From a virus: a stretch of 64,000 bases of DNA. Location: positions 62,001-126,000 of IMG/VR virus record IMGVR_UViG_3300020474_000001; one strand, written 5' to 3'. Both the position numbers and the translations under genes were made by a program. The stretch's first letter is position 1. Each line of letters starts with the position of its first letter. Below, one piece after another: positions 15,005 through 63,010 of the stretch. Below the pieces are notes generated by a model. The model did no database searches. It was given only the letters and a program-made list of their open reading frames with translations, and was not told the DNA's origin.

Positions 15005-15033
15005 ATTATAGACAAAAAAAGAGGGTCTGTCAA
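15005..15033 (-). promoter_or_regulatory. Consensus promoter inside a terminator (thyX operon)
   Basis: TTGACA, 17 bp and TATAAT on the minus strand. The -35 lies on the loop of the hairpin 15021-15040 that ends the upstream gene. Predicted start is about 17 nt before ATG 14981. Confidence 0.82.
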
Positions 15034-15040
15034 GACCCTC
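15021..15040 (-). terminator. Terminator with a -35 hexamer in its loop
   Basis: An 8-bp stem GAGGGTCT/AGACCCTC with a GTCA loop is followed on the minus strand by seven T. It ends the 15050-15277 gene. The TTGACA of the next promoter spans the loop. Confidence 0.88.
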
Positions 15041-15049
15041 TGTATGAAT

Positions 15050-22335: not shown

Positions 22336-22381
22336 TTGAAAAAGGGTAGGTAATAGTGCAGGGAACACTAATGGTGATATT

Positions 22382-22404
22382 TCCACGACACCCTCCATCG
22401 TGGA
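22382..22404 (-). promoter_or_regulatory. psbA leader hairpin
   Basis: TCCACGA and TCGTGGA form a perfect 7-bp stem around a 9-nt loop, about 47 nt upstream of the psbA ATG. No terminator T-run follows directly, so an RNA stability or translation control role is possible. A second inverted pair (ATACACC 22421-22427 and GGTGTAT 22446-22452) lies just upstream in the same leader. Confidence 0.5.
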
Positions 22405-22497
22405 TATTAGAGACGTGTTTATACACCCCATAGGTCTCGGTTGATGGTGTATCATCGGATCAAGCAACTTCACATTTCTTAACCCGTTGATGTAACT

Positions 22498-22526
22498 ATA
22501 ATATCAAAGAACCCAGGTCTTGTCAA
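22498..22526 (-). promoter_or_regulatory. psbA promoter
   Basis: TTGACA, 17 bp, TATTAT on the minus strand; RNA would start near 22491 and carry a leader of about 155 nt. The -35 lies between AACCCAG and CTGGGTT arms of an inverted repeat at about 22508-22533. Confidence 0.78.
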
Positions 22527-22583
22527 CTGGGTTGTGCCAGTTAAAAAACTGAACATGTATCATTACGAACAGTCGTTATTATG

Positions 22584-34679: not shown

Positions 34680-34708
34680 AGTATATGACAAAAAAAGAGG
34701 GGTGTCAA
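34680..34708 (-). promoter_or_regulatory. Promoter with -35 in the preceding terminator loop
   Basis: TTGACA, 17 bp, TATACT on the minus strand. The -35 is exactly the loop of the hairpin 34697-34714. Predicted start is about 16 nt before ATG 34657. Confidence 0.8.
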
Positions 34709-34714
34709 CCCCTC
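34697..34714 (-). terminator. Terminator after the outer-membrane-like gene
   Basis: A 6-bp stem GAGGGG/CCCCTC with a TGTCAA loop is followed on the minus strand by seven T. It lies just after the 34728-35111 gene. Confidence 0.87.
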
Positions 34715-52072: not shown

Positions 52073-52145
52073 TGGAGAATAGGAGACTCGAACTCCTGAC
52101 AGCCTGCTTGCAAAGCAGGTGCTCTACCAACTGAGCTAATTCCCC
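52073..52145 (-). tRNA. tRNA-Ala (anticodon TGC)
   Basis: 73 nt. Acceptor GGGGAAT/ATTCTCC with one mismatch-type G-T position, anticodon stem CCTGC/GCAGG with loop TTTGCAA, GTTCGAGTC T-loop. It is separate from the other eight tRNAs and has its own promoter. Confidence 0.9.
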
Positions 52146-52155
52146 GATATAAAAT

Positions 52156-52184
52156 ATTATAAGACCCTCAAGACTATCTGTCAA
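52156..52184 (-). promoter_or_regulatory. Consensus promoter for tRNA-Ala inside a hairpin
   Basis: TTGACA, 17 bp, TATAAT on the minus strand. The -35 lies in the loop of the 52162-52192 hairpin and the spacer forms its other arm. RNA would start about 4 nt before the tRNA. Confidence 0.85.
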
Positions 52185-52192
52185 GAGGGTCT
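52162..52192 (-). terminator. Hairpin after the histone-like gene
   Basis: An 8-bp stem AGACCCTC/GAGGGTCT with a 15-nt loop, 8 nt after the 52200-53267 stop. A T/A-rich tract follows. It is both the likely terminator of that gene and the site of the tRNA-Ala promoter. Confidence 0.72.
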
Positions 52193-59785: not shown

Positions 59786-59814
59786 AGTATAGCAAAAAAA
59801 TAGGGGGGCGTCAA
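59786..59814 (-). promoter_or_regulatory. Promoter inside the terminator arm
   Basis: TTGACG, 17 bp, TATACT on the minus strand. The -35 lies within the right-hand part of the 59803-59837 hairpin. RNA would start about 16 nt before ATG 59763. Confidence 0.75.
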
Positions 59815-59837
59815 CTGGATTTTGCCAGTTGCCCCCC
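59803..59837 (-). terminator. Strong terminator after the ParB-like gene
   Basis: GGGGGG/CCCCCC and AACTGG/CCAGTT arms form a long hairpin, followed on the minus strand by TATTTTTTT. The next promoter's -35 is in it. Confidence 0.88.
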
Positions 59838-59883
59838 AGAGGCGACGATATTTAAAAGGTAGCCGCAATTATTTATTCGGTTA

Positions 59884-60954
59884 TCAATAATTTTCAATAT
59901 TTACAAAACGATATCCCCTAGCATAAGAATCATGCTTACCAATGACTTGAGGTATGCATCCCAAAATCTTGTAAGGAACTGACTTAACAGGGAGTTTCAG
60001 TTCTCCCATCGTCCAACCAGGAGCATAATCCTTCTCAACCATTAGGTAAGACGCATCCAGAAAAAATTTCACGTTATCTTGGAACTTTTCAATGTTCTTA
60101 CGTGCTTCTGCAGGAATGTGATTGTTTGAGAATAGAATAATCTCAATAGGAGAATCGTTTTTCACAATTGAAGGGAGAATATGCTGGCACCATGCACGAT
60201 ATGCATATGTATCACTATCAGCAGAAAGCAAAAATACAGTCTTGTTATCGACTTTCTTACCAGATTTCTCGCAATACGCTTCCCATTTCTTACGATCCTT
60301 AACATGAACTAGGGGATCACCACCAGCAACACCACGCTTAAGAATTGAATTAATAATCTTAGTGATATTGCCCGTGGAAAAACTTTTTTCAATATTCAAT
60401 TCATTGTGAAGATAATTCCGAATACCAACTTCGTTAAGAGCAAGTTCACCACACTTAATAATGTAAAGGCAACCAATGACAACCGACTCCATTGTTGCCG
60501 TAAAAGATGCTGGGTGACGCAAGTTTTGTGTTAGTCCATCACTGACGCGACTCTTTTCAGAATCGTCCTCAATGACATAATAGAAGGCAGGGATGAATTT
60601 TTCACCACGACGCTTCGCGGCGATGACTCTTCCACGACCATCTCGTGGTTTACCATCAGTTCCTATCATAGGAGGAACAAAGTCAGTATTGAATCCTTCT
60701 ACCTCATAGGTATTTTCAAAGGTTTCAATACGATCCCTGGTATTACCCTCTTCGCGGATACCAACGTTTTCCCACATGGGGTCGTTTTCATCTACAATGC
60801 TGAGGTCAAGAGATCCGATGTGAGAAAATTTTCCAGCAAGGATTCTAGGTGGCAACACCATTTTTTTTATGTAATCTTCCAGGTTAATCTCACCAACTCC
60901 ATTAAAACCAGGAATCTGATGAGGACCTTCGATGTGTGACATTTCGTAAGTCAT
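59884..60954 (-). CDS. ParB/sulfiredoxin-like domain protein
   Basis: From ATG 60954 about 356 residues. DGRGRVIAAKRRGEKFIPAF near residue 95 resembles the ParB/Srx G-x-H/R-R-x-x-A-x4-G core that binds nucleotides. RVSDGLTQNLRHPASFTATM then a helical domain follow. Nuclease-like or DNA-binding roles are known for phage ParB-like proteins. The longer frame starts at the RNA start of the promoter, so 60954 is preferred. Its terminator and promoter are composite. Confidence 0.68.
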   Translation of the reverse strand: MTYEMSHIEGPHQIPGFNGVGEINLEDYIKKMVLPPRILAGKFSHIGSLDLSIVDENDPMWENVGIREEGNTRDRIETFENTYEVEGFNTDFVPPMIGTDGKPRDGRGRVIAAKRRGEKFIPAFYYVIEDDSEKSRVSDGLTQNLRHPASFTATMESVVIGCLYIIKCGELALNEVGIRNYLHNELNIEKSFSTGNITKIINSILKRGVAGGDPLVHVKDRKKWEAYCEKSGKKVDNKTVFLLSADSDTYAYRAWCQHILPSIVKNDSPIEIILFSNNHIPAEARKNIEKFQDNVKFFLDASYLMVEKDYAPGWTMGELKLPVKSVPYKILGCIPQVIGKHDSYARGYRFVNIENY

Positions 60955-61017
60955 AAGAAACGTTTGCAATTTTGCTTTTGTTGAACTTCGCGGTGCAGTG
61001 CGGTGCGAGATATTCAT

Positions 61018-61046
61018 ATTATATAGGAAAACCCCAGGAGTGTCAA
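61018..61046 (-). promoter_or_regulatory. Promoter in the hsp20 terminator
   Basis: TTGACA, 17 bp, TATAAT on the minus strand; the -35 lies in the loop of the 61030-61061 hairpin. It serves the ParB-like gene. Confidence 0.82.
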
Positions 61047-61061
61047 TCACGTCCTGGGGTT
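61030..61061 (-). terminator. hsp20 terminator
   Basis: A 10-bp stem AACCCCAGGA/TCCTGGGGTT around a 12-nt loop, with a T-rich tract (TCCTATATAAT) on the minus strand. It lies 35 nt after the hsp20 stop. Confidence 0.8.
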
Positions 61062-61595: not shown

Positions 61596-61624
61596 ATTAT
61601 AGCATAAAAAAACGGGGTAGTGAA
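61596..61624 (-). promoter_or_regulatory. Promoter for hsp20 inside a terminator
   Basis: A weak TTCACT -35, 17 bp and TATAAT on the minus strand. The -35 is the loop of the 61613-61629 hairpin. RNA would start about 59 nt before hsp20. Confidence 0.6.
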
Positions 61625-61629
61625 CCCCG
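61613..61629 (-). terminator. Terminator after the DNA methyltransferase gene
   Basis: A 6-bp stem CGGGGT/ACCCCG with an AGTGA loop is followed on the minus strand by seven T. It ends the methyltransferase gene. Confidence 0.86.
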
Positions 61630-61644
61630 CATATTTTTGTTCGG

Positions 61645-62481
61645 TTATATCCTGTTGAAGAATGCGTCTAGCGTTCCATCACCTTTATTATATTTCTTCT
61701 CAATCACCCGCGTTAATCCCAATCGTTGTGTTGCAAAATCAATGTAATCTTTATCTATATCATATCCAATATAATCCCACCCAATATTGACTGCTGCAAC
61801 AGCAGTAGATCCTGTTCCCATAAACGGATCAAGAACTATACCAGATTGTTTTCCAGTTAATTTCAAGCAATCTTCAACTAATTTGACGGGAAATACTGCT
61901 GGATGCTTTTTATCTTCTCTCTTCATCCAAAGAGTTTCATATGGAATAAACCAACAATTACCTTTATCCCTAAGATTTGGTTTTGTATCATTCAAAGACT
62001 TACTGTGTCTCAGGTTTTCCTTGTAGTATTCATAAGGGACACCCACAGATAGACGATCTACATCTATACTACCATCTTTAGTAAAGTGGAAAAGATGTTC
62101 CCATGTTGGAGATAAAAATCTTTTACTGTTAATTGGTTTTGCATGACCACTAGTCTTACCATTTACATGAATAGACTTGACCCAATTAATATGATTTTGC
62201 AATATCCAATCCTGCCTAAGAGCAAGACCCACTTCCATGCCAATCCATGGATCAACATTAGAGTATCCCATATTGACAAATAAATGCCCATCATCTTTAA
62301 GAACTCGTTTTCCTTCTCGGAAGATTTCTACCAACCAGTCAAGATACTCCTGACGTGGTTTATTGTCATCATACTTACCGTATTTAATTTTAAGATTATA
62401 CGGAGGAGACGTAACGATAGCATCAATACTACTATCCTCCAGTTTTTTCATACCCTCTAAACAATCAAGCAAATAAAGCAT
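61645..62481 (-). CDS. DNA methyltransferase, beta-class (N4-cytosine/N6-adenine)
   Basis: From ATG 62481 about 278 residues. The catalytic motif TSPPYNLKIKYG lies near the start and the AdoMet motif LDPFMGTGSTAVAAV near the end, the beta-class order. The target recognition part is between. N4-cytosine or N6-adenine specificity cannot be set here. Its start overlaps the nuclease-like gene, so the two are coupled and may form a modification and defence pair. Confidence 0.88.
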   Translation of the reverse strand: MLYLLDCLEGMKKLEDSSIDAIVTSPPYNLKIKYGKYDDNKPRQEYLDWLVEIFREGKRVLKDDGHLFVNMGYSNVDPWIGMEVGLALRQDWILQNHINWVKSIHVNGKTSGHAKPINSKRFLSPTWEHLFHFTKDGSIDVDRLSVGVPYEYYKENLRHSKSLNDTKPNLRDKGNCWFIPYETLWMKREDKKHPAVFPVKLVEDCLKLTGKQSGIVLDPFMGTGSTAVAAVNIGWDYIGYDIDKDYIDFATQRLGLTRVIEKKYNKGDGTLDAFFNRI

Positions 62482-62902
62482 CACGATCTTTGAATGGAAT
62501 GGAACCTTTGACGTATTTGGTGAGATCAGATCCGCGTTTGAATACAACGCTAACCTTAGGAAATTCAACAACGTCACAAAAAATATAAATCATGCCAGTA
62601 GCATGTTCCCAAAGTTTTTCTTCATCCACATATCGACCAGCACCTTGCATCACACTAGGAGAGAACTTAGAACCACCCTTAGTAAAACACTTAGCATCAA
62701 ACAACTCTTTCATGTATTTGTAACGATGATCATACCCCCTACCATCTTCAAAGACAAGACCTTCAAACCACTCTTCAAGTTGCAATTCAAGAAACCTAGA
62801 TGCACAGCGACCATCAGTGAACAATCTATTCACACGTTCTTGAGATAAAGTGCCAAAAGATGCAGGGCACTCAAAATCATATACTTTATTGAGTTGTAGC
62901 AT
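62465..62902 (-). CDS. PD-(D/E)XK-like nuclease next to methyltransferase
   Basis: A 145-residue protein. CASRFLELQLEEWFEGLVFE has a Glu-rich helix, GYDHRYKYMKELFDAKCFTK carries a possible catalytic D-x-K (DAK), and FSPSVMQGAGRYV and IYIFCDVVEF follow. This pattern resembles T4-like phage proteins of restriction-endonuclease type. Coupled with the methyltransferase gene, it could be a restriction partner or a repair nuclease. Activity is not shown by the sequence alone. Confidence 0.62.
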   Translation of the reverse strand: MLQLNKVYDFECPASFGTLSQERVNRLFTDGRCASRFLELQLEEWFEGLVFEDGRGYDHRYKYMKELFDAKCFTKGGSKFSPSVMQGAGRYVDEEKLWEHATGMIYIFCDVVEFPKVSVVFKRGSDLTKYVKGSIPFKDRDALFA

Positions 62903-62925: not shown

Positions 62926-62954
62926 ATTGTAGCAAAAAAAGACCTCCCAGTCAA
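62926..62954 (-). promoter_or_regulatory. Promoter with -35 in the regA terminator loop
   Basis: TTGACT, 17 bp, TACAAT on the minus strand. The -35 is exactly the AGTCAA loop of the 62941-62962 hairpin. RNA would start about 17 nt before ATG 62902. Confidence 0.75.
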
Positions 62955-62962
62955 GGGAGGTC
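62941..62962 (-). terminator. regA operon terminator
   Basis: An 8-bp stem GACCTCCC/GGGAGGTC with the 6-nt loop AGTCAA is followed on the minus strand by seven T. It ends the gp62-regA transcript. Confidence 0.9.
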
Positions 62963-63010
62963 TTCGGGTTTCCGACATTCGTAGAGTCTGCACGAAAGAC
63001 TCAAAAATAT

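Follow-up and report, generated by a model that had tools for sequence, protein, structure and literature searches.

The locus upstream of thyX raises the question of whether the terminator of one gene and the early promoter of the next can share the same bases, and whether such an overlap is a recurrent regulatory element of this virus and its relatives or an accident of A+T-rich DNA. The window, by which we mean the whole stretch of 64,000 bases that was analysed, comprises bases 62001-126000 of a virus record totalling 207,655 bases. It carries psbA, thyX (whose product was identified through Pfam Thy1), regA, gp43, hsp20, a gene for a DnaB-like helicase and nine tRNA genes, and its nucleotide matches are Synechococcus and Prochlorococcus phages. 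From this gene content and these matches the virus is a T4-like cyanophage with a genome of 207 kb.

Architecture of the terminator-promoter sites

Read on the minus strand, site 1 has the layout AGAGGGTCT-TGAC-AGACCCTCT-TTTTTT-GTC-TATAAT. A preliminary description of the window had given it exactly so, with a hairpin, a T-run, TTGACA across the loop and TATAAT 17 bp further on, and it is the sole match to all 12 promoter consensus positions within 10-25 kb. The same description listed seven such sites on the minus strand, all of which are real; at each of the seven a -35-like hexamer inside the hairpin lies exactly 17 nt ahead of a TATAAT-like -10. The loops that it read as TGTCAA, AGTCAA and AGTGAA are the plus-strand readings of TTGACA, TTGACT and TTCACT.

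Other parts of that list needed correction. The T-run is absent from site 3 and is only TTTT at composite 5, and the -35 of composite 4 sits outside the loop, in a 3'-arm bulge. Site 1, presented as the promoter of the thyX operon, leads into a 61-aa ORF that overlaps thyX and not directly into thyX. A similar, weakly T-tailed site before psbA had been missed; it is the eighth site of Table 1. The PhotoRC-II leader lies directly 3' of this promoter, so that the two together span 22369-22533.

Table 1. Coordinates of the terminator-promoter sites and associated features in the window
Feature	Position	Strand	Hairpin and T-tract	-35	-10	Context
Composite 1	15005-15041	minus	15041-15020, T-tract	TTGACA 15033-15028, spans loop	TATAAT 15010-15005	61-aa ORF downstream, overlapping thyX
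PhotoRC-II RNA leader of psbA	22369-22462	minus				Rfam RF01717, 66.3 bits
Eighth, weaker site	22498-22533	minus	22533-22510, weak T-tract	TTGACA 22526-22521, in loop	TATTAT 22503-22498	Promoter of PhotoRC-II leader and psbA
Composite 2	34680-34714	minus	34714-34697, T7	TTGACA 34708-34703	TATACT 34685-34680	Neighbours: cyanophage OMP-like gene, phage-lysozyme gene
tRNA-Ala	52073-52145					Downstream of site 3
Site 3	52156-52192	minus	Palindrome AGACCCTC/GAGGGTCT, 15-nt loop	TTGACA 52184-52179, in loop	TATAAT 52161-52156	Upstream of tRNA-Ala
Composite 4	59786-59837	minus	Bulged hairpin 59837-59803, T7	TTGACG 59814-59809, in bulge	TATACT 59791-59786	Between hsp20 and DUF6561 gene
388-aa ORFan	59884-61050	minus				Bracketed by composites 5 and 4; absent from most relatives
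Composite 5	61018-61061	minus	10-bp stem, 12-nt loop, T4 tract	TTGACA 61046-61041, in loop	TATAAT 61023-61018	Start of inserted ORFan
Composite 6	61596-61629	minus	61629-61613, T7	TTCACT 61624-61619	TATAAT 61601-61596, overlaps late-type ATAAATA	hsp20 downstream
Two-gene module	61645-62902	minus				145-aa ORFan and N6/N4 DNA methyltransferase; flanked by composites 7 and 6
Composite 7	62926-62964	minus	62964-62939, T-tract	TTGACT 62954-62949	TACAAT 62931-62926	regA on one side, two-gene module on the other

Measured against a sigma70-type promoter (TTGACA and TATAAT 16-18 nt apart), the sites match 10-12 of the 12 consensus positions and have a 17-nt spacer. Measured against a Rho-independent terminator (a G+C-rich hairpin followed by a T-tract), six of the seven have both parts, one of them with a weak T-tract. 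The exception is site 3, where the T-tract is absent and the 3' arm abuts TATAAT; on these grounds it was ruled out as a terminator, and a promoter palindrome in front of tRNA-Ala is the best reading of it. Composite 2 was also found in three related loci (L091, L092 and L094). All composites of the genome are on the minus strand and within the window, and a scan of the rest of the 207-kb genome yielded no additional clear early composite, the remaining strong terminators having plain loops.

Proposed function of the composites

We consider it probable (roughly 0.85) that the sites apart from site 3 act as composite regulatory cassettes at which a host sigma70-type RNA polymerase ends one transcription unit and begins the next. 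In RNA made from the upstream gene, the sequence would fold into a G+C-rich hairpin with U's behind it, and transcription would stop. As a duplex, the same DNA would serve as a strong early sigma70 promoter. Placing the -35 TTGACA over the hairpin loop or the 3'-arm bulge, where no pairing is needed, would cost few base pairs, while the 17-bp spacer would be built from the 3' arm and the T-tract with the -10 right after. The new start lies beyond the hairpin, which would therefore be excluded from the new RNA and would not weaken the new transcript. One unit could in this way be closed and the next opened within about 40 bp, and an accessory gene or a small block could be gained or lost with its neighbours undisturbed. 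From the sequence we infer both termination and initiation in infected cells, as well as early timing and a fitness value for the arrangement.

Excess over shuffled controls

Among 164 metagenomic cyanophage loci, retrieved around regA, thyX and one lysozyme gene, 253 unique strong terminators were identified by a rule that combined a perfect stem, a loop of up to 8 and a T-tract. Each was given a score for a promoter with a -35 beginning inside the hairpin, and a promoter score of 10/12 or better defined a composite. Composites made up 64 of the 253 terminators, a count that is not fully independent because the loci are related by descent and were deduplicated for exact copies only. The preliminary description had proposed that -35 hexamers in cyanophage terminator loops be counted against shuffles, and the outcome favoured it by a wide margin: shuffling the loop and the downstream DNA with the hairpins kept left 1.9 +/- 1.4 composites (maximum 6 in 200). 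Loop-only shuffling left 13.6 +/- 2.9 (maximum 24), and swapping the downstream DNA left 23.9 +/- 4.2. In the phage's own genome, the strict perfect-stem rule gave 4 composites among 23 terminators versus 0.2 +/- 0.4 (maximum 2) after shuffling. Under the same rule there were no composites among 111 terminators of cyanobacterial host loci or among 27 of phage RB49. A general habit of the cyanobacterial hosts taken over by the phage was ruled out by the host count.

The details of the arrangement were equally regular. TTGAC occurs in 53 of the cyanophage terminator hairpins and its reverse complement in 8; the centre of the hexamer coincides with that of the loop in 46 of the 64 composites; and when the -10 was searched freely over 10-26 nt, 17 nt was the best spacing in 44 of 57 cases. 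The converse check, which started from promoters picked without regard to hairpins, found stems centred on the -35, within 2 nt in 32 of 49. The test, run in both directions, thus supports the proposal that terminator and new early promoter may form one composite module. Also in keeping with the claim that these sites end one gene and start the next, a composite stands before 52 of 159 same-strand genes versus 3 of 42 convergent ones (p=7e-4, with a simple ORF model). As a separate observation, promoter-associated stems in L011-L174 also form two minor clusters, one centred 10-12 nt before the -35 (9 cases) and the other about 24 nt beyond it (10 cases).

Crowding of terminators and promoters

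Compact phage genomes force terminators and promoters close together anyway. The strongest competing explanation, to which we give a substantial but clearly less than even chance, is therefore pure economy of space, with terminator and promoter selected separately and the overlap arising from short gaps, with no function of its own. The distances are indeed short, with medians of 19.5 nt from stop codon to stem and 38 nt from stem to start codon. Late-type promoters ([CA]TAAATA) also lie within 30 nt after strong terminators, at 5 of 23 in the phage's own genome (expected 0.14) and at 24 of 272 in L011-L174 (expected 1.9), and crowding of terminators and promoters is therefore general. These late-type cases are the local flavour of an ordinary intrinsic terminator followed by a promoter, and they resemble the composites in that both elements lie within tens of bases. 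They differ in that no bases are shared, no -35 is needed and the promoter abuts the T-tract; the shared -35 is specific to early-type promoters. Crowding alone, moreover, would scatter the -35 around the hairpin, whereas it is centred on the loop or bulge in a fixed 17-nt register, and the fall from 64 to 13.6 on loop-only shuffling points the same way. S-CRM01, which is equally crowded, has another solution without a -35 in the loop. The composite could nevertheless have arisen in evolution through economy of space, an account that is compatible with both parts working.

The overlap might also be functional in itself. A polymerase that has terminated in the T-tract would already be positioned over the spacer of the following promoter; if sigma were held or regained, it could re-initiate there by recycling, so that polymerase would be handed from early gene to early gene with the RNAs kept separate. 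E. coli polymerase shows such post-termination recycling in vitro and re-initiates at nearby promoters, with retention dropping with distance (PMC6978380); by analogy, a promoter that overlaps the terminator would be the limiting case. We regard this extension as speculative and rather improbable, and the cassette offers a compact natural test for on-the-spot re-initiation by a terminated polymerase.

Composites at gene insertions and homology breakpoints

In most relatives hsp20 is followed by the composite-4 element, directly or after a small gene (in L059 it runs straight to it), and in relatives such as L033 regA adjoins hsp20 with a single terminator between them. The present genome has extra genes at both places, two between regA and hsp20 and one ORFan between hsp20 and composite 4, and each extra block has a composite at both ends. 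Neither the 388-aa ORFan nor the 145-aa ORFan (62465-62902, minus strand) had a Pfam or PHROG match. Among 68 loci, the promoter-bearing form stands directly after regA in 8 of 25 with an insert versus 0 of 43 without (p=1.5e-4), although two of the eight lack a clear hairpin; at the other 17 junctions with an insert, no composite could be recognised immediately behind regA. Composites 1, 5 and 7 and site 3 mark points where homology to relatives begins or ends, and at composite 1 it starts exactly. The link between composites and insertions is an association, and recombination within or between cassettes would be one way in which the insertions arose.

These breakpoints and bracketed inserts could also mean that the composites are mainly recombination sites, that is, short repeats for module exchange with regulation secondary. 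Such a role has been proposed for the promoter-early stem-loops (PeSLs) of T4-like phages, as cited in a passage of PMC4503421. We think this unlikely. The stems differ between sites, so that shared runs are short (sites 1 and 2, for example, have CCCTCTTTTTTTGTC in common); composite 4 holds a fixed core position in 242 records and is not mobile; and inserts without composites exist. A regulatory cassette at which exchange may also occur remains the preferred reading. Separately, a conserved hsp20 leader, GGATGCCTTCGGGGTCCACAAAACACAAACTCGCTT, was noticed in L033 (2300-2440), L012 (8940-9070) and L021 (3430-3660) and is a possible 5'-UTR hairpin.

The conserved composite upstream of the DNA polymerase gene

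Composite 4 is located downstream of hsp20 and ahead of the DUF6561 gene, itself followed by the DNA polymerase gene gp43; it is conserved as part of the core. Its element matches 242 phage records, all of them cyanophages, and is present in P-SSM7 too; the matched stretch is without an annotated feature in nearly all listed records, Bellamy included. The invariant core of the bulged hairpin is CTGGCAAAATCCAG. A comparison of 32 sequences gave 27 distinct hairpin cores, in which the outer stems vary and can even be offset by 2 nt against the -35. The variants were folded one by one in preference to counting pairs on the MAFFT alignment, where the outer stem is displaced by 2 columns from one variant to another against a fixed -35. 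Among variants with the -35, the -10 was kept in 27 of 27, in 26 of them at 17 nt. L078 and L081 have kept the hairpin and lost both the -35 and the consensus -10.

Some of the invariant bases, namely the upstream TATCGTCG and the hairpin core CTGGCA[AC]AA[TA]CCAG, go beyond what a terminator or promoter needs, and they are possibly a binding site for a protein or RNA near the DNA polymerase gene. Together with the missing T-tract of site 3, they are what would be expected if the hairpins were protein-binding operators or single-stranded hairpin promoters and not terminators. For the sites as a class we find that account very improbable: a canonical T-tract stands behind nearly all other hairpins, the stems and loops outside TTGAC vary freely from site to site, and TATAAT follows at 17 nt, as it would in an ordinary sigma70 promoter. 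As an observation in its own right, TATCGTCG[GC]CGC is invariant upstream in the composite-4 element (59786-59868, minus strand) across L011-L090 and the 242 phage records.

Chance overlap in A+T-rich DNA has next to no probability for the class, being contradicted by the shuffles, the host and reverse-complement controls and the conservation, even though promoter-like matches alone are only slightly above expectation in 10-25 kb (52 versus 42.8 +/- 6.5 shuffled) and a single site such as composite 6 could still be weak.

Comparison with PeSLs and other phages

PeSLs of T4-like phages are reportedly the subject of work by Arbiol et al. in 2010 and by Comeau, Arbiol and Krisch in 2014. A passage of PMC4503421 calls them 'composite conserved promoter-terminator motifs' of T4-like myoviruses, and the same source gives only sparse PeSL candidates for S-PM2. 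For T4-like phages, the concept of a combined promoter and terminator is already in the literature, a precedent that the preliminary description left out; the cyanophage geometry and the canonical terminator tail are what differ. Our literature search found no transcript-end mapping in T4-like cyanophages.

The likeness to PeSLs is considerable. In both, a stem-loop and a sigma70-like early promoter are fused in the gaps between the small early genes of a T4-like phage, the element is tied to gene gain and loss, and the idea of a shuffling cassette is common to both. The cyanophage composites have the strong sigma70-like early promoter and the stem-loop overlapping it, and they occur in variable regions and at module junctions, as the regA junctions and breakpoints indicate, though composite 4 has a core position. 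Similarity among copies is limited to shared runs of about 15 nt. In contrast, the geometry is different. In RB49, as read directly from its sequence and not from the definition in the PeSL papers, the centre of the stem lies either 11-12 nt downstream of the -35, with the stem filling the spacer (TTGACA-GGGGATCGGTGATCCCC-TATAAT), or 20-22 nt downstream of it, with the -10 in the loop, and there is essentially no T-tract. In the cyanophages the stem has its centre at 0, on the -35 itself, and the spacer is taken up by the T-tract; a T5 run was found in the spacer of 46 of 207 cyanophage promoters picked blind to hairpins, versus 0 of 43 in RB49. The RB49-type geometry (a stem in the spacer or around the -10, no T-tract) was absent from the cyanophage composites, and site 3 alone resembles it. 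Identity with the RB49 PeSLs was ruled out on geometry.

The cyanophage cassette thus appears, from its sequence, to work like a PeSL with a geometry of its own. Two groups of T4-like phages merge a terminator and an early promoter, each with a geometry of its own, which suggests that such cassettes were selected for independently. Among cyanophages the form described here is widespread, and most of it lacks annotation. The rule of TTGAC in a terminator loop followed at 17 nt by TATAAT can be used to predict early transcription units, and insertion junctions as well, in these abundant viruses of the ocean.

Segments of T4 and KVP40 contain few such promoters and none with a stem on the -35. 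Under the same rule, the segments of S-PM2, syn9 and S-CRM01 yielded no composites, while S-SCSM1 has a perfect one before the thyX leader genes, so the density varies by lineage. Cassettes were placed at about position 146705 of the S-SCSM1 record and at 136412-136486 in Bellamy. S-CRM01 has instead a unit of its own, ACTG[TG]CAC followed by a hairpin and TTTTTGTGTTAGAAT, which resembles the composites as a repeated terminator plus -10-like unit of a cyanophage and differs in having a loop without a -35 and a short upstream repeat instead. Four copies of this unit were noted in L261 (8806-8830, 12921-12945, 27089-27111 and 35689-35712), some with an inverted ACAGT...ACTGT upstream.
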